A stretch of DNA of 20,090 nucleotides, from the IMG/VR virus record IMGVR_UViG_3300036046_000176, positions 1 to 20,090 of that record; one strand, written 5' to 3'. A program made the position numbers and the translations under genes. A model generated the notes under the pieces. It ran no database searches and was not told the DNA's origin. It saw nothing but the letters and a program-made list of their open reading frames with translations. The DNA comes from a virus. Below are positions 2,960 to 13,331 of this stretch, piece after piece. How positions within the stretch are numbered: the stretch's first letter is position 1; each line of letters starts with the position of its first letter.

Positions 2960-3222
2960 AGCAGTCGCGCGCCATGTCGCTGGTAGAGTCCGTCGCCAAT
3001 GTAGTCGTAGGCTACGGCGTCGCCGTGGTGACGCAGATCATGATCTTCCCGGTCTTCGGGCTGCACACGACACTGGCGCAGAACCTGAAGATGGGCGCGG
3101 CGTTCACTTTGGTGAGCATCGCGCGGTCCTACGTCCTGCGGCGGCTGTTCGAACGGGTCAGGGTTGCCAATCGCTCCGGCGACCATGGCGGACGTGCAGA
3201 ACCCGCACCGCACCGTCGATGA
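2956..3222 (+). CDS. Small two-helix membrane protein, DUF7220-like
   Basis: The 88-residue product begins MKQSRAMSLVESVANVVVGY and has two hydrophobic segments, about residues 10-34 and 45-62, followed by the basic stretch RRLFERVRV. That arrangement, and the text as I remember it, match a small prophage-associated family (DUF7220) of unknown function. The start overlaps the TGA of the upstream frame 2 as ATGA, which suggests translational coupling with the methyltransferase operon. The last 65 bases overlap the 3' end of the convergent toxin gene, and the residues encoded there (ANRSGDHGG onward) look less conserved than the rest. A second open frame starting at 2943 has poor protein text and is rejected. 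Confidence 0.75.
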   Translation: MKQSRAMSLVESVANVVVGYGVAVVTQIMIFPVFGLHTTLAQNLKMGAAFTLVSIARSYVLRRLFERVRVANRSGDHGGRAEPAPHRR

Positions 3223-3469
3223 CGGCATAGTAGATCCGCCAGCGCGTCGCCTTTCCGTAGAGCGCGCGACGGACGGCCACATCGAATTCACGCGACTCCG
3301 GGGCAATCGGATGCGCGTCGGGCATCGCGCCAAGGGCGAGGATGGTGTCGCGGATGCCCGCCAGCCATTCGTCCGCCGCCCTAGGATTGCGATCGCGCAG
3401 GTAAGTCCATGACGCTGTCAGATCATCCGCCGCGTTCGGCGTGATGATCACCGGGAGAGGGGAAGTCAT
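3158..3469 (-). CDS. RelE/ParE-family toxin of a type II toxin-antitoxin pair
   Basis: The 103-residue product starts MTSPLPVIITPNAADDL and has the RelE/ParE layout: an N-terminal strand, two helices (DDLTASWTYLRDRNPRAADEWLAGI), then strands including ATRWRIYYAVIDGAVRVLHVRHGR. Family members either cleave mRNA at the ribosome (RelE) or poison DNA gyrase (ParE); the sequence alone does not decide which. The ATG at 3469 overlaps the TGA of the antitoxin gene as ATGA, the standard coupled arrangement. The open frame extends 43 codons further upstream, but that part is antisense-quality text inside the antitoxin. The 3' end runs 65 bases into the convergent DUF7220-like gene. Confidence 0.85.
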   Translation of the reverse strand: MTSPLPVIITPNAADDLTASWTYLRDRNPRAADEWLAGIRDTILALGAMPDAHPIAPESREFDVAVRRALYGKATRWRIYYAVIDGAVRVLHVRHGRRSDWQP

Positions 3470-3741
3470 TTCGTCTTGGCGAGGCCGTCGAAGAACGTGC
3501 CCGCGTCGGTACCTTGACCGGCACGGGCCTGCGTCAGACCCTTGCGGATCCCCGCGACCGTTTCGGCATAGTCGAGCTGGTCCTGCATCTCCTGCCAAGC
3601 GGCGGCATCTATAACGACAACGGAAGGCTTGCCGTTCACGGTCAGGATCTGCGGCCGACCGGTCTCCTTGATCTGCGCGATCAGACGCGCCGAATCCCGC
3701 TTGAACTCGGTCAGCGGGCTGATGTCCTTGGTGATGTTCAT
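3466..3741 (-). CDS. Phd/YefM-family antitoxin
   Basis: The 91-residue product begins MNITKDISPLTEFKRD and contains the typical antitoxin core ARLIAQIKETGRPQILTVNGKPSVVVIDAAAWQEM, the dimerising DNA-binding domain of the Phd/YefM family. The C-terminal part (about 60-91) would be the flexible toxin-neutralising segment. I place the start at 3741 rather than at the upstream ATG (3762) because MNITKDISPL matches the family start and a GGGAGG precedes it at 8 bases. The gene lies directly upstream of and overlaps the toxin gene. It would bind the toxin and repress the pair through the inverted repeat upstream. Confidence 0.88.
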   Translation of the reverse strand: MNITKDISPLTEFKRDSARLIAQIKETGRPQILTVNGKPSVVVIDAAAWQEMQDQLDYAETVAGIRKGLTQARAGQGTDAGTFFDGLAKTK

Positions 3742-3756
3742 GACTGGCCTCCCGGC

Positions 3757-3804
3757 GCGCATCGAATTAGGTGCGAATATAGCGCCTTTTCCGATGCGCG
3801 TCGA
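3757..3804 (-). promoter_or_regulatory. Promoter and inverted repeat upstream of the Phd/RelE pair
   Basis: On the minus strand TCGACG (3799-3804) and TATATT (3776-3781) are separated by 17 bases, a plausible sigma70-type promoter 35 bases ahead of the antitoxin start. Perfect 8-base inverted arms GCGCATCG (3757-3764) and CGATGCGC (3792-3799) bracket the -10 box. This is where an autorepressing Phd-type antitoxin would be expected to bind. Confidence 0.45.
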
Positions 3805-5324: not shown

Positions 5325-7272
5325 CGGTGATCTGACCGACTTCGACGGCGCGGCGGAAATCCTGCGCACCTGGGGCGCGGGGCTGACGCCCGATCCTGAT
5401 CTCACAGTGTCACAATGGGCGGACCGGCATCGGATGCTGTCGGGTCGCGCATCGGCCGAACCGGGACGCTATCGCACCGCGCGCACGCCCTACATGCGCG
5501 AGATCATGGACCGGCTGTCGCCCGGCGACGCGATGCAGCGCATCGTGTTCATGAAGGCCGCGCAGGTCGGCGCGACCGAGGCGGGCAACAACTGGATCGG
5601 CTTCGCCATCCACCAGGCGCCGGGCCCGATGCTGGCGGTCCAGCCCACGGTGGAACTTGCCAAGCGCAACTCGCGCCAGCGGATCGACCCGCTGATCGAC
5701 GAAAGCCCCGAACTGCGGGACCGCGTCAAACCGGCCCGGTCGCGAGATGCGGGCAACACCATGCTGTCGAAGGAGTTCGCGGGCGGCATCCTGATCATGA
5801 CCGGCGCGAACTCGGCGGTCGGGCTGCGATCTACCCCGGCGCGCTACATCTTTCTCGACGAGGTCGATGCCTATCCGGCCTCGGCCGACGAGGAAGGCGA
5901 TCCGGTAACGCTGGCCGAGGCGCGGTCGCTGACCTTCGCCCATCGGCGGAAGGTGCTGCTGGTCTCGACGCCCACCATTCGGGGGCTGTCGCGCATCGAG
6001 CGCGAGTATGAGGCGTCCGACCAGCGCCGGTACTTCGTGCCGTGCCCGCATTGCGGGGCGATGCAATGGCTGAAGTTCGACCGGCTGCGCTGGCAGAAGG
6101 GCAAGCCAGAGACTGCGGAATATCACTGCGAAGGCTGCGATCAGCCCATCGGTGAGCACCACAAGACGGCGATGCTTGAGGTGGGTGAATGGCGGGCGAC
6201 GGCCGTTGCCGCCGACCCGACTACGGTCGGGTATCACCTCTCGGCGCTGTACTCACCGATCGGCTGGTTGAGTTGGGAGCGGATCGTGCGGTCATGGGAA
6301 GCAGCCCAAGGGTCGGACGAGGCGATCAAGGCGTTCCGCAACACGATCCTTGGCGAGACTTGGGTCGAAAGCGGCGAAGCGCCGGACTGGCAGCGGCTCT
6401 ATGACCGGCGCGAGGCATGGAAGCCGGGCACGGTACCAGCGGGCGGGTTGTTCCTGACCGCCGGGGCCGACGTCCAGAAAGACCGGATCGAAGTCGATGT
6501 CTGGGCTTGGGGTCGTGGCTTGGAGTCCTGGCTCGTCGATCACGTCGTCATCGAAGGCGGCCCTGATCGGCATGACGCCTGGTCGGAGCTGACCGCGCTG
6601 CTCGACCGGTCCTGGCCGCACGAGCGCGGCGCGCATCTGCGCATTGCGCGGCTCGCCATCGACACCGGCTACGAGGCCCCGGCGGTCTATTCCTGGTCGC
6701 GGGCGCAAGGTTTCGCGCAGGTGTCGCCGGTGAAGGGCGTCGAGGGGTTCAACCGCTCGAGCCCGGTGTCGGGGCCGACCTTCGTCGATGCGACCGAGGG
6801 CGGGAAGCGGCTGCGGCGCGGCGCGCGGCTCTGGACCGTGGCGGTCTCGACCTTCAAGGCCGAGACTTACCGCTTCCTGCGGCTGGCGCGCCCGACCGAG
6901 GAGGACATCGCCGACGGGGCGGCGTTCCCGCCCGGCTCGGTGCATCTGCCGCACTGGGTCGAGAACGAATTGCTGAAGCAGTTCGTGGCCGAACAGCTGG
7001 TGACGGTGCGCACCAAGCGCGGCTTCGCCCGGCTGGAATGGCAGAAGCTGCGCGAGCGCAACGAGGCGCTGGACTGCCGGGTCTATGCCCGCGCCGCCGC
7101 CTGGATCGCGGGCGCGGATCGCTGGTCTGAGGAGAAATGGCGCGATCTCGAGGATCAGCTCGGGGCCGCGCCGACGACGGAGGATACGGCGGAGCGGGTC
7201 CATCGACCGCAATCCGCATCCCAAGGAAAGCGGCAGTCGGATTGGCTGGGCCGACGCGGAGGATGTTTCTGA
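5272..7272 (+). CDS. Terminase large subunit, GpA family
   Basis: The 666-residue protein is the ATPase-nuclease that cuts phage DNA and drives it into the prohead. Visible motifs are the adenine-binding and P-loop region KAAQVGATEAG (about 95-105), Walker B YIFLDEVDA (192-200), the coupling motif VSTPT (about 231-235), a zinc-binding set CPHC (258-261) and CEGC (286-289), and a C-terminal RNase H-like nuclease with acidic boxes near ADVQKDRIEVDV and LAIDTGYEA. Length and order fit the lambda GpA family. I choose ATG 5272, overlapping the small subunit gene by 53 bases; an in-frame upstream start at 5230 adds residues without family character. The gene appears intact, although the genes that follow are damaged. 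Confidence 0.95.
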   Translation: MSVPTSTSLPRSGLTSDDGDLTDFDGAAEILRTWGAGLTPDPDLTVSQWADRHRMLSGRASAEPGRYRTARTPYMREIMDRLSPGDAMQRIVFMKAAQVGATEAGNNWIGFAIHQAPGPMLAVQPTVELAKRNSRQRIDPLIDESPELRDRVKPARSRDAGNTMLSKEFAGGILIMTGANSAVGLRSTPARYIFLDEVDAYPASADEEGDPVTLAEARSLTFAHRRKVLLVSTPTIRGLSRIEREYEASDQRRYFVPCPHCGAMQWLKFDRLRWQKGKPETAEYHCEGCDQPIGEHHKTAMLEVGEWRATAVAADPTTVGYHLSALYSPIGWLSWERIVRSWEAAQGSDEAIKAFRNTILGETWVESGEAPDWQRLYDRREAWKPGTVPAGGLFLTAGADVQKDRIEVDVWAWGRGLESWLVDHVVIEGGPDRHDAWSELTALLDRSWPHERGAHLRIARLAIDTGYEAPAVYSWSRAQGFAQVSPVKGVEGFNRSSPVSGPTFVDATEGGKRLRRGARLWTVAVSTFKAETYRFLRLARPTEEDIADGAAFPPGSVHLPHWVENELLKQFVAEQLVTVRTKRGFARLEWQKLRERNEALDCRVYARAAAWIAGADRWSEEKWRDLEDQLGAAPTTEDTAERVHRPQSASQGKRQSDWLGRRGGCF

Positions 7273-7282
7273 GTGAGGACCG

Positions 7283-7321
7283 GTCCGCGCAGCGGACGCG
7301 AGGCTCCAGTGGAGCGTCGCG
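7283..7321 (+). repeat. Two tandem hairpins after the terminase gene
   Basis: GTCCGC (7283-7288) pairs perfectly with GCGGAC (7292-7297) around GCA. It is followed directly by a second hairpin: CGCGA (7297-7301) plus GCTCC (7303-7307) pairing with GGAGC (7311-7315) plus TCGCG (7317-7321), with one G-G mismatch. They fill the 82-base gap before the gpW-like gene. The two stems share C7297 and so cannot both be complete at once. No T tract follows. They may be an mRNA-processing or stability element, or a dispersed genomic repeat. Confidence 0.5.
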
Positions 7322-7354
7322 AGGGAACGAACGCACTGAGCGGGAGCGAAGGGC

Positions 7355-7552
7355 ATGGACTGGACGGAGACAGAGCTGGGCGCCTTGCGCCGGGCCTATG
7401 CCAGCGGCACGACCCGCGTCAGCTATGACGGCAAGTCGGTGGACTATGACTCAGTCGAGGACCGCTTTATGGCTGAAGATCGGATTTGCCTAAATTGCAA
7501 TACTCACAGAGGACTTGAAGGTTCTCGATCTCGTTTCCGCCTCCTTTGCTGA
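7355..7552 (+). pseudogene. Truncated gpW-like head-tail joining protein
   Basis: The first part, MDWTETELGALRRAYASGTT then RVSYDGKSVDYDSVED, reads like the small gpW-type head-to-tail joining proteins that sit between terminase and portal genes. After about residue 37 the text changes (FMAEDRICLNCNTHRGLEG) to antisense of the HNH gene and stops at 7552, so the native C-terminus has been lost. The change coincides with the fall in GC and with the HNH stop codon at 7467-7469. Members are usually about 70 residues, so roughly 30 are missing. A GGGAGCGAAGGG precedes the ATG. The remnant is probably non-functional. Confidence 0.72.
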
Positions 7553-8176
7553 AAGGGATAACATGGTCAATGTGCAGAGTTGCCCCTTTCTGCGGAGTTG
7601 CCCCACACAACTGGCAACGTGCACCATCCCGCATTAGCACTCTCGCCCGACATCGCCAGCTTATATCGCGCTTGATCCTGTTAGATTTGGGCTTCTCGTA
7701 TCGCGGCAAATCGTATAATTCATCTGATGCGTTTGCCCACTCGACAAAGGCCTCCAGGGCGCGACGCCAGCCACCAAAGCGGCTCTCGTATGTGCTGGAC
7801 GAGACTCGTGAGCCCTCACAATTCATGTCCGTGCGTCTAGGCTGGTTTCCGAGCGCCTGCCAGACCGTGACGAGGTTATGAAAAAGTACTTCGTCGGGAA
7901 TCGCATGCCTCTTGCTGATCGGAGCGCCAATTCGCGTTAGGACGGTATTCCAGTTTCCAAGGCGATTTGTGATTGTTGTCGGACTATATTTCCCAAGCCT
8001 CTTATAGGCTCTTTGCGTAAGTCGCTTTCCTTCGAGTGTGATTGCGACCCGCCGAAGATCGGCAATGAGTTCTTCGTCCGGTACATTTCTATGGTATTCT
8101 GTAAGCTGAAATATTCTAGTCATCTCCAATAGCCTGAGAGTTGACGTCGCTCTGGGACGATCATCATAGAAGAAGT
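7466..8176 (-). mobile_element. HNH endonuclease cassette replacing phage head genes
   Basis: This stretch has clearly lower GC than its flanks: two 60-base samples inside (7681-7740 and 7981-8040) are 45% and 47% GC, against 72% at 7021-7080. It carries one minus-strand HNH gene and nothing else. The left edge cuts the gpW-like gene and the right edge cuts the portal gene, whose first roughly 200 codons are absent. I find no target-site duplication or terminal inverted repeats, so this is not an insertion sequence; a homing-type endonuclease insertion with deletion fits better. The edges are accurate only to about 10-20 bases. Confidence 0.7.
7467..8123 (-). CDS. HNH homing-type endonuclease with two N-terminal HNH-associated repeats
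   Basis: The 218-residue protein should be a metal-dependent DNA endonuclease. The C-terminal HNH domain has CQLC (170-173), HIDH (184-187), FSKGGGNEIENLQ and CEYCN (206-210) before LGKSD, that is, two zinc-binding CxxC pairs around the active His residues. The N-terminal half has two copies of a helical repeat, VPDEELIADLRRVA...NRLGNWNTVLTRIG and IPDEVLFHNLVTVW...SRFGGWRRALEAF, like the repeat associated with homing endonucleases, probably for DNA recognition. The start at ATG 8123 is chosen because the upstream extension is antisense to portal coding sequence. The gene faces against the late operon and is AT-richer than everything around it, which points to recent acquisition. Confidence 0.88.
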   Translation of the reverse strand: MTRIFQLTEYHRNVPDEELIADLRRVAITLEGKRLTQRAYKRLGKYSPTTITNRLGNWNTVLTRIGAPISKRHAIPDEVLFHNLVTVWQALGNQPRRTDMNCEGSRVSSSTYESRFGGWRRALEAFVEWANASDELYDLPRYEKPKSNRIKRDISWRCRARVLMRDGARCQLCGATPQKGATLHIDHVIPFSKGGGNEIENLQVLCEYCNLGKSDLQP

Positions 8177-9136
8177 ATGCCCTCAAACGGCGCACTTGGC
8201 AAGCGGCGGGCCTATTGGCTGCACACGGCACACCCCGGCGATGCCTGGGGCACGCTGCAGGGCGGGCTCGGGTCGCGCCCGGTCCCCGCGACCGAGATTG
8301 CCCATGTCTACGAGAAGCAGCGCACGCAGGCACGCGGCGTTCCCTGGGGCGCGCCGGTGACCCGCAGCTTGCGCGATCTTGACGATTACGAGGTGGCGGA
8401 ACTGGTCCGCAAGAAGACCGAGGCTTGCGTCACCGCCATCGTCTTCGGCGACGACGAGGCGCAGCAGGGGATCGCGCCCTCTGTGGTCGATGCCGACGGC
8501 AACCGGGTCGAGCAGTTCGAGCCGGGGCTGATCGCCTATGCGCGCGGCGGCAAGGACATCCGGTTCAACCAGCCCGCAGCCACTGGCGGCTATGGCGAAT
8601 ACAAGCGGGCGAGCCTTCACACGATCTCGGCCGGGTTCCGGGTGCCCTACGAGCTGCTGACCGGGGACCTGTCCCAGGTCAACTATTCCTCGATCCGGGC
8701 GGGGCTCGTGGAGTTCCGCCGCATCATCGACGCCGTCCAGTGGCAGCTCTTCATCCCGATGCTTTGCGCGCCGGTCTGGCGCTGGTTCACCGAGGCTGCA
8801 TGGGCAGCGGGGCAGATCCCGACGCCCGACGTGCCGGTGGAATGGTCGCCGCCGAAGTTCGATGCCGTCGATCCCTACAAGGATGCGATGGCCGACCTGC
8901 TGGCGATCCGGACAGGCACGATGACGCTGGCGCAGGCCATTGCCCGGCAGGGCCACAACCCGGATGCGGTCCTCGCGGAGATCGCCGCGACCAACGCCAA
9001 GCTCGACGGCCTCGGCCTCGTGCTCGACAGCGACCCACGCCGCGTCACCAAGACCGGCAGTGCGCAGGCGGGCGACCCGACTGGAGAGCCGACCAGTGAC
9101 CCGGCCGCCCCCGCATCCGAACCAGAGAAGGAATAG
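8177..9136 (+). pseudogene. Phage portal protein, lambda family, lacking its N-terminal part
   Basis: From about GALGKRRAYWLHTAHPGD onward the text matches the C-terminal portion of lambda-type portals: RGVPWGAPVTRSLRDLDDYE, the long helix AELVRKKTEACVTAIV, the segment GGKDIRFNQPAATGGYGEYK, then FRVPYELLTGDLSQVNYSSIRAGLVEF. Full-length relatives are about 500 residues, while only about 319 remain; the missing piece corresponds to the N-terminal roughly 200. The ATG at 8177 falls at the junction with the HNH cassette and is probably not the native start. An open frame from TTG 8141 adds 12 unrelated residues. The portal ring joins head to tail and is the packaging channel, so the truncation should block particle formation unless the missing part is supplied elsewhere. 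Confidence 0.85.
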
Positions 9137-11898: not shown

Positions 11899-12527
11899 GA
11901 CTGAAGCTCGACATCGATCCCGACATCGTCGCGATGATGGCGGCCGAGGTCGCGGCGGGCGAGCGGGCTGTGTCGGCTGCGATCCGCGAGGCCGGGACAG
12001 GGCTGAAGGCGGCCTGGCGACTGCAGATCACCGGCGCGGGCCTCGGGCCCCGGCTCGCCCGCACCATCCGGTCGGCGCAGTTCCCCAAGGCCACGCCCAG
12101 CCTGAACGCGGCCGCCGTGGTGTGGTCCAACGCCCCGGTCATCGTCGGCGCCCACGACACCGGCCCGCTGATCCGCTCGAAGAACGGCTTCTGGCTTGCG
12201 ATCCCGACGCCCGCCGCAGGCAAGTCCCTGCGCGGCGGCCGGATTACCCCCGGCGAATGGGAACGCCGCACCGGTCTGCGCCTGCGCTTCATCTATCGCC
12301 GCAGGGGTCCAAGCCTTCTGGTGGCCGAAGGGCGGCTGAACACTAAAGGTCGCGCCGTGGCCTCCCGGTCGAAGACAGGCCGTGCCCTCGTGACCGCGCC
12401 GATCTTCCTGCTGGTGCCACAGGTCAAGCTGCCGAAGCGGCTGGACCTGGCGCGAGATGCTGAGCGGGCGCATGACGCGGTGCCGGGGTTGATCGTGGCG
12501 AACTGGGTGGAGGGGCGAACCGGGTGA
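11895..12527 (+). CDS. DUF6441-family tail/joining protein
   Basis: The 210-residue product starts at GTG 11895, overlapping the upstream stop as GTGA. It begins MRLKLDIDPDIVAMMAAEVA, then a helical stretch (AGERAVSAAIREAGTGLKAA), the segment RLARTIRSAQFPKATPSLNA, NGFWLAIPTPAAGK and a basic strand region (RRTGLRLRFIYRRRGPSLLV). I recall this text as DUF6441, found between head-joining and tail-terminator genes of alphaproteobacterial prophages; position suggests a role like HK97 gp10 at the tail-completion step. Its TGA is immediately followed by the reverse-strand stop of the antitoxin gene, so the two genes abut with no spacer. Confidence 0.75.
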   Translation: MRLKLDIDPDIVAMMAAEVAAGERAVSAAIREAGTGLKAAWRLQITGAGLGPRLARTIRSAQFPKATPSLNAAAVVWSNAPVIVGAHDTGPLIRSKNGFWLAIPTPAAGKSLRGGRITPGEWERRTGLRLRFIYRRRGPSLLVAEGRLNTKGRAVASRSKTGRALVTAPIFLLVPQVKLPKRLDLARDAERAHDAVPGLIVANWVEGRTG

Positions 12528-12902
12528 TCACGCGCGCGCGGCGGCGCGTCCGTCGTCGCGCGCGGCACGACGGCGACGGCGCGGCTCCTCGGTCTCCCCG
12601 AGCCCCTCGATAGCCACCGGGGCCTTGCCGGGAAACTCGACCATCAGCTTGAGCGAGCCGCCCATCGCGCGCACATAGCTCGACAGAGTCGAAAGGAGCA
12701 GATCGCTCTGGCGCTCGTACTTCGCGACGGTCGCCTGCTGGATGCCGAGGGCTTCGGCCAGCTGGACCTGCGTCAGATCCTTGGCTTTCCGCAGTTCCTG
12801 CAGGGTCAGGTATTCAGTGTGGAGCCGGTCTGCCTCGGCCTCGATGCCCGCGCGACGGGCCGCATCGAGCGTGGCCAGCTTGTCCTTTAGGGTGCGTGCC
12901 AT
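12528..12902 (-). CDS. XRE-family (HigA-like) antitoxin
   Basis: The 124-residue product begins MARTLKDKLATLDAARRAGI and carries a helix-turn-helix: LRKAKDLTQVQLAEALGIQQATVAKYERQSDLLLSTLSSYVRAMGG. It should neutralise the toxin encoded just upstream and repress the pair. An ATG at 12911 overlaps the toxin stop as ATGA and would add three residues; I prefer 12902 because AAAGGA lies at a proper distance. The last 20 residues (EPRRRRRAARDDGRAAARA) are arginine-rich and come from a very GC-rich run of CG repeats. Such a tail is unusual for the family and may be a readthrough extension created where the gene was inserted. Toxin-first order is typical of HigBA. Confidence 0.85.
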   Translation of the reverse strand: MARTLKDKLATLDAARRAGIEAEADRLHTEYLTLQELRKAKDLTQVQLAEALGIQQATVAKYERQSDLLLSTLSSYVRAMGGSLKLMVEFPGKAPVAIEGLGETEEPRRRRRAARDDGRAAARA

Positions 12903-12907
12903 GGTCC

Positions 12908-13261
12908 TCATCCTTTCCGTTTCGCCAGATGGCGGTCGAACCGCTCATCGGCCCTCGCGATCAGCTGCTTGTAGAAGCGCTTCTCGCTCACGCCAGACTT
13001 GTCGCCGCCGACGAGCAGGATTGCCTGCCGGTCGGGATCGAATGCGAAGGCGATGCGCCACACGCCGTCAGCGGCGTTGCAGCGCAGTTCCTTCATGTTG
13101 GCATGCTTCGACCCGGTCAGGGTGTCGGCATGCGGACGTCCGAGTGTCGGCCCTTCGCGTTCCAGAAGGAGCGCGCGGGCCAGGATCGCGTCCTGAACCT
13201 CCGGTGGGAGTGCGTCGAACTCCGGTTCGAACTCCTCGGCAAACGAGACGGTCCACGGCAT
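12908..13261 (-). CDS. RelE/HigB-like toxin (phage Gp49-type)
   Basis: The 117-residue product begins MPWTVSFAEEFEPEFDALPP and has the family pattern: helix EVQDAILARALLLEREGPTLGRPHADTLTG, then strands KHANMKELRCNAADGVWRIAFAFDPDRQAILLVGGDKSG, then the C-terminal helix RFYKQLIARADERFDRHL. These toxins usually cleave mRNA at the ribosome. A GAGG lies 5 bases before the ATG, and a good promoter is just upstream. The gene overlaps its antitoxin and faces against the surrounding late operon, so it is an independently expressed accessory unit. It could aid lysogen maintenance or defence against other phages; this is inference. Confidence 0.85.
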   Translation of the reverse strand: MPWTVSFAEEFEPEFDALPPEVQDAILARALLLEREGPTLGRPHADTLTGSKHANMKELRCNAADGVWRIAFAFDPDRQAILLVGGDKSGVSEKRFYKQLIARADERFDRHLAKRKG

Positions 13262-13281
13262 GCGATCCTCATGTCTTGGAA

Positions 13282-13312
13282 GCTATATAGCCCTGAGGCA
13301 TTAATTTGGCAA
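13282..13312 (-). promoter_or_regulatory. Promoter with overlapping palindrome for the HigBA-like pair
   Basis: On the minus strand TTGCCA (13307-13312) and TATATA (13284-13289) are separated by exactly 17 bases, the best sigma70-type promoter I see in the window. The -10 box is embedded in the perfect palindrome GCTATATAGC (13282-13291), a natural site for autorepression by the antitoxin. Transcription would start about 16 bases before the toxin ATG. Confidence 0.7.
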
Positions 13313-13331
13313 GAACGGCCCGAGTAGATCG

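Follow-up and report, generated by a model that had tools for sequence, protein, structure and literature searches.

Organisation of the locus

The window, as we call the whole stretch of DNA analysed here, is a virus record of 20,090 bp which represents a siphophage or prophage fragment of the Rhodobacter group. It encodes a terminase, a gpW-like protein, a portal, a fused protease/capsid protein, head-tail proteins, a tape measure protein and a lysozyme. In its head module, the start of a gpW-like gene (7355 to 7463, plus strand) is followed by a foreign insert (7462 to 8197) which carries one HNH endonuclease gene on the opposite strand (7467 to 8123, minus strand) and, after this, by the C-terminal part of the portal gene (8198 to 9136, plus strand). 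The nearest named phages are those of Rhodobacter capsulatus, e.g. RcDormio, with a DNA identity of about 70%. The portal modules of RcDormio and related prophages show the same gene order as the window, namely terS, terL, gpW-like, portal and capsid/protease, but keep an intact gpW and portal, which the window does not. Much closer kin is found among IMG/VR contigs, whose portals share 88% to 98% amino acid identity with that of the window, and among prophages in the bacterial genome family around G334. The comparison set comprised about 80 close relatives from IMG/VR together with about 20 prophages from host genomes; a second portal query yielded few contigs, which were more distant. Outside the insert and apart from some variable spots the window is collinear with these relatives over 20 kb. 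Its other core genes are intact, and the checked stretches of terL, portal and MCP contain zero stop codons.

One of the variable spots, located in the head-tail region (12510 to 13331), harbours an HTH antitoxin-like/Gp49-like toxin pair on the minus strand and differs in content and length among the relatives, which identifies it as a site of variable cargo. Upstream of the terminase, a ParE-like toxin and a Phd/YefM-like antitoxin are encoded on the minus strand (3158 to 3762), a stretch for which two compared relatives (G007 and G010) offer no DNA match. Two adjoining genes at the left end (435 to 2959) resemble, by the appearance of their sequence only, DNA methyltransferase genes of the ParB/N6 and the cytosine type. 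The gap between terL and gpW contains about 80 additional bases (7273 to 7357), GC-rich and with short inverted motifs, which are common to some relatives only (e.g. L046, L021 and L010).

Junctions of the insert

Alignment to the relatives places the end of the shared sequence on the left at about 7461 to 7463. Calculated per base over 75 relatives, the agreement mostly amounts to about 95% up to this point, is near 0 from 7464 onwards and leaps to about 100% at 8198. The bounds of the insert (7462 to 8197) are defined by this break of homology, which is found at 7461/8198 in all relatives and goes along with a change in GC content. The native spacing between the two junction points is 684 bp in 93 of 102 relatives and 678 to 740 bp in the other nine, and the net exchange is thus one of 736 bp in the window for 684 bp in the relatives. 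The insert with its HNH gene is absent from all 102. In a search of 293 further genomes with the junction region, well-matching prophages appeared as two separate blocks leaving the insert unmatched. An earlier note on this DNA, made from the sequence alone, had described an HNH stretch between a broken gpW and a broken portal, and had proposed a replacement with loss of an essential portal part instead of a clean insertion. The alignment of about 100 relatives bears out both statements and renders the structure exact. A split portal of the same kind in related phages, which according to that note would have spoken against its reading, was looked for among these relatives and not found.

Neither an exact 60-mer spanning the left junction nor a 31-mer from the insert has a match in viral contigs, and neither the junction nor the insert occurs on any further contig in the collections searched, so that the arrangement is represented by one record only. 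Terminal repeats, terminal inverted repeats of the insert and a target duplication were sought and not found. A search of Rfam over 7200 to 8500 returned nothing above cutoff and no intron match. A group I intron or an intein was rejected as the identity of the insert, as 684 bp are missing between the flanks and the host gene is not continuous.

A near-identical direct repeat of 13 nt (7387 to 7399 and 8203 to 8215), whose two copies code for RRAY in gpW and in the portal, lies near the junctions, not at them, and is native to the phage group. A deletion between its two copies was considered and rejected since the left junction falls outside the repeat.

The HNH gene

With a GC content of 51.4%, compared to 68.4% in the rest of the window, where the lowest value for any 736-bp stretch is 63.2%, the insert is of foreign, lower-GC origin. 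The low GC content given in the earlier note is thus correct in kind, while its figure of 45% to 47% is not. The insert consists of little beyond one complete minus-strand gene (from 8123 to 7467, with the stop right at the left junction, as that note had it), which is separated from the phage sequence by 4 to 6 bp on the left and by 74 bp on the right. It ends with a TAA stop codon (7469 to 7467) and encodes a protein of 218 amino acids, in which two HNH_repeat units precede a C-terminal HNH domain. The 74 bp upstream of its start (8124 to 8197, 51% GC) belong to the insert as well, and one weak promoter-like match on the minus strand (8202 to 8174) extends into them. Both Pfam domains score above their cutoffs (HNH_repeat, PF18780: 5.5e-25, 87.9 bits, cutoff 26; HNH, PF01844: 1.5e-13, 51.1 bits, cutoff 21.4), and the active-site residues His184, Asp186, His187 and Asn201 do not vary across an alignment (A1) that includes six relatives. 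The reading frame is intact, and the gene may be expressed.

Remnants of gpW and portal

In intact relatives gpW comprises 68 to 69 residues and the portal 503 to 507. In the window, gpW is cut after residue 35 to 36 (about residue 37 in the earlier note), from where its frame enters the insert and homology is lost, leaving about 33 residues missing. The portal lacks exactly 195 N-terminal residues and is kept from native residue 196 onwards (about residue 200 in that note), i.e. for about 310 residues. Accordingly, the Pfam family Phage_portal_2 is matched over profile positions 160 to 354 in the window compared to 2 to 354 in an intact relative, and the full-length domain to be expected of a functional lambda-family portal is not present. 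The portal relatives found by a sequence search of the PDB (8gtd, 8vhx and 8k38) match mainly the retained part. The rest of the 20-kb window contains no copy of the missing 684-bp segment (no match longer than 30 bp); a search for the lost portal N-terminus, as suggested earlier, found it nowhere else in the fragment.

Within the insert, an ATG at 8177 that is in frame with the remnant opens a possible truncated frame of 319 amino acids (8177 to 9136, plus strand; taken from the sequence and the list of open reading frames), and translation of the remnant could possibly start there. Together with the conservation of the remnant and with the precedent of genes working in pieces, such as the split nrdA of phage Aeh1 (PMC2988022), this start codon might suggest a functional split or shortened portal. 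The 195 N-terminal codons, however, are missing from the window and not merely displaced, and every compared relative keeps the full gene, which makes a functional remnant scarcely plausible. Rather, the loss of the gpW C-terminus and of the portal N-terminal third would leave the phage portal-null unless another prophage supplied both proteins, and the copy in the window can probably not form particles unaided. For the 20-kb fragment, this agrees with the former view that a working portal would have to be supplied in trans.

The portal remnant differs from the consensus in six amino acids, compared to a median of nine in intact relatives, and ten of 870 bases are rare among the relatives, eight of these ten being synonymous. 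This rate is close to the 36 of 3200 bases (about 1%) counted in blocks of terL and the capsid gene. In the gpW remnant, by comparison, six of 104 bases are rare, three of which are located at 7449 to 7455, within 13 bp of the junction. The absence of decay and the background substitution rate of the portal remnant would fit a recent event or an artefact of assembly or amplification in which an HNH gene from another organism in the sample had been joined to the phage at both ends. Such a chimera would also account for the absence of a sister contig with the junctions and of a donor or any close HNH gene in the sampled hosts of the phage group. Yet it requires two independent false joins which bracket one complete gene and, 684 bp later, lead back into the same phage, in flanks collinear with the relatives for kilobases on both sides, and the gpW remnant shows an accumulation of unusual substitutions next to the junction. 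We therefore regard an assembly chimera as unlikely.

Relatives of the HNH gene and known systems

Full-length relatives of the HNH protein are few and distant, with 36% to 55% amino acid identity, the same domain order and similar length. Those at 47% to 55% stem from an Ottowia, a Polaromonas and the metagenome-assembled genomes (MAGs) of a member of the Burkholderiales, one of the Thermodesulfovibrionia and one of the Chloroflexi. One was found in a sample of 395 genomes of the host family (at 40%), two among 385 genomes of the host class and six among 250 genomes of the order to which the Ottowia relative belongs. No donor above 55% amino acid identity was found in phages, plasmids, viral contigs or genome collections, nor has the insert DNA a plasmid match of its own. 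By its domains and conserved active-site residues the protein belongs to the class of solitary HNH_repeat (PF18780) plus HNH proteins (L086 to L090, L101 and L176 to L183). The genes of this class are rare and, in the loci examined, mostly lie between intact-looking chromosomal genes, whereas in the window such a gene stands in place of the central part of a phage head module. The gene thus sits cleanly elsewhere, and the damage in the window is exceptional. In one of these loci (L101, 1495 to 2160, minus strand) the HNH stop codon overlaps that of carB end-to-end and without spacer; this carB matches its relatives to the end and is intact.

Two of the relatives (L087 and L086) reside on contigs that also encode an integron integrase (TIGR02249, above the curated cutoff). 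In the Ottowia contig (L087, 2329 to 9846) the integrase (464 bits) precedes a series of small genes, one of which is the HNH relative, and the recurring short ORFs around the genes of this series resemble attC repeats. The insert might on these grounds be an integron cassette that entered a secondary site and was later trimmed by deletion. Its HNH stop codon, however, lies 4 to 6 bp from the phage junction, and no attC fits directly downstream; likewise, a search of the relatives' loci with Rfam detected no attC and lent the cassette no support. We consider this origin extremely unlikely.

HNH proteins of the HK97 gp74 and Skunavirus HrdP type, which act in packaging, also carry an HNH domain encoded near terL and portal, in Skunavirus between the two (PMC12724721), and the insert occupies this very position. 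In contrast to these, the gene of the window is found on the opposite strand, encodes two additional HNH_repeat units, is absent from about 100 relatives instead of being co-directional and conserved in the phage group, and comes with the removal of part of the portal. Phage HNH families align to its product mainly over the HNH domain, and a library of defence proteins matches it at the domain level only. The protein is not a typical phage HNH or terminase-linked HNH protein, and the probability of a packaging role is next to negligible.

The label "homing-type", which the earlier note had attached to the gene, is not borne out; the full-length relatives are mostly solitary chromosomal genes, two of them on contigs with an integron integrase, and not phage homing genes. 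A homing function is suggested by the name of the Pfam repeat family only. The free-standing homing endonucleases of phages, e.g. the seg and mob genes of T4 and the mobE that splits nrdA in Aeh1, resemble the present case in that a conserved gene of the phage is disrupted by one endonuclease gene, and such enzymes often target conserved genes (PMC2988022). The T4-type genes, however, merely split phage genes which stay functional (PMC2988022), whereas 684 bp are lost in the window, where cleavage and homing are putative. Of the clean insertion with intact flanks and the same allele in several phages which mark a mobile homing gene, neither was seen among the 102 relatives or in the collections searched. 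One might nevertheless conceive of a homing endonuclease with a damaging allele, which cuts an intact portal or gpW and thereby spreads the deletion to co-infecting phages or to co-resident prophages that supply the portal. The family name HNH_repeat (homing-endonuclease-associated repeat) and the position of the gene well inside a conserved core gene would agree with this. Against it stand the absence of the allele from about 100 relatives, the failure to find full-length relatives of the protein in the phages searched and their varied chromosomal sites; moreover, the spread of a portal-null allele would be self-limiting. A damaging homing allele thus appears highly unlikely.

Discussion

A solitary, lower-GC, foreign HNH gene with almost no flanking DNA has taken the place of 684 bp that begin midway in gpW and extend to codon 195 of the portal gene. 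We think it likely, with some reservation, that this single capture or replacement is a recent and probably unique lesion which leaves the phage portal-null. The replacement is best read as illegitimate, in one or two steps. Either the head module could have suffered a break whose DNA ends were then joined to an HNH fragment that had been captured, or the HNH gene could have inserted cleanly before a deletion removed the sequence up to its edges; both paths fit the data. The arrangement has the look of a one-off lesion rather than of a new system, and as a mobile HNH gene that breaks a core phage gene it would be unusual only in degree.

We assign a very small chance to a stranger reading, in which a helper-dependent, portal-null prophage employs its endonuclease to attack an intact gpW-portal region, borrows the portal from the phage that is cut and, as a cheater, turns its helpers into copies of itself. 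Such a prophage would itself be immune, since it lacks the gene which its enzyme attacks.

Since one record is at hand and no donor was found, we regard the illegitimate replacement which we favour chiefly as a well-documented lesion, behind which there is a small chance that something stranger lies. In general, one expects selfish endonuclease genes to settle in phage genomes and spare the essential genes. A clear case of recent replacement would demonstrate that they are also able to render phages defective, and the site described here would allow one to ask whether the deletion was driven by the enzyme.
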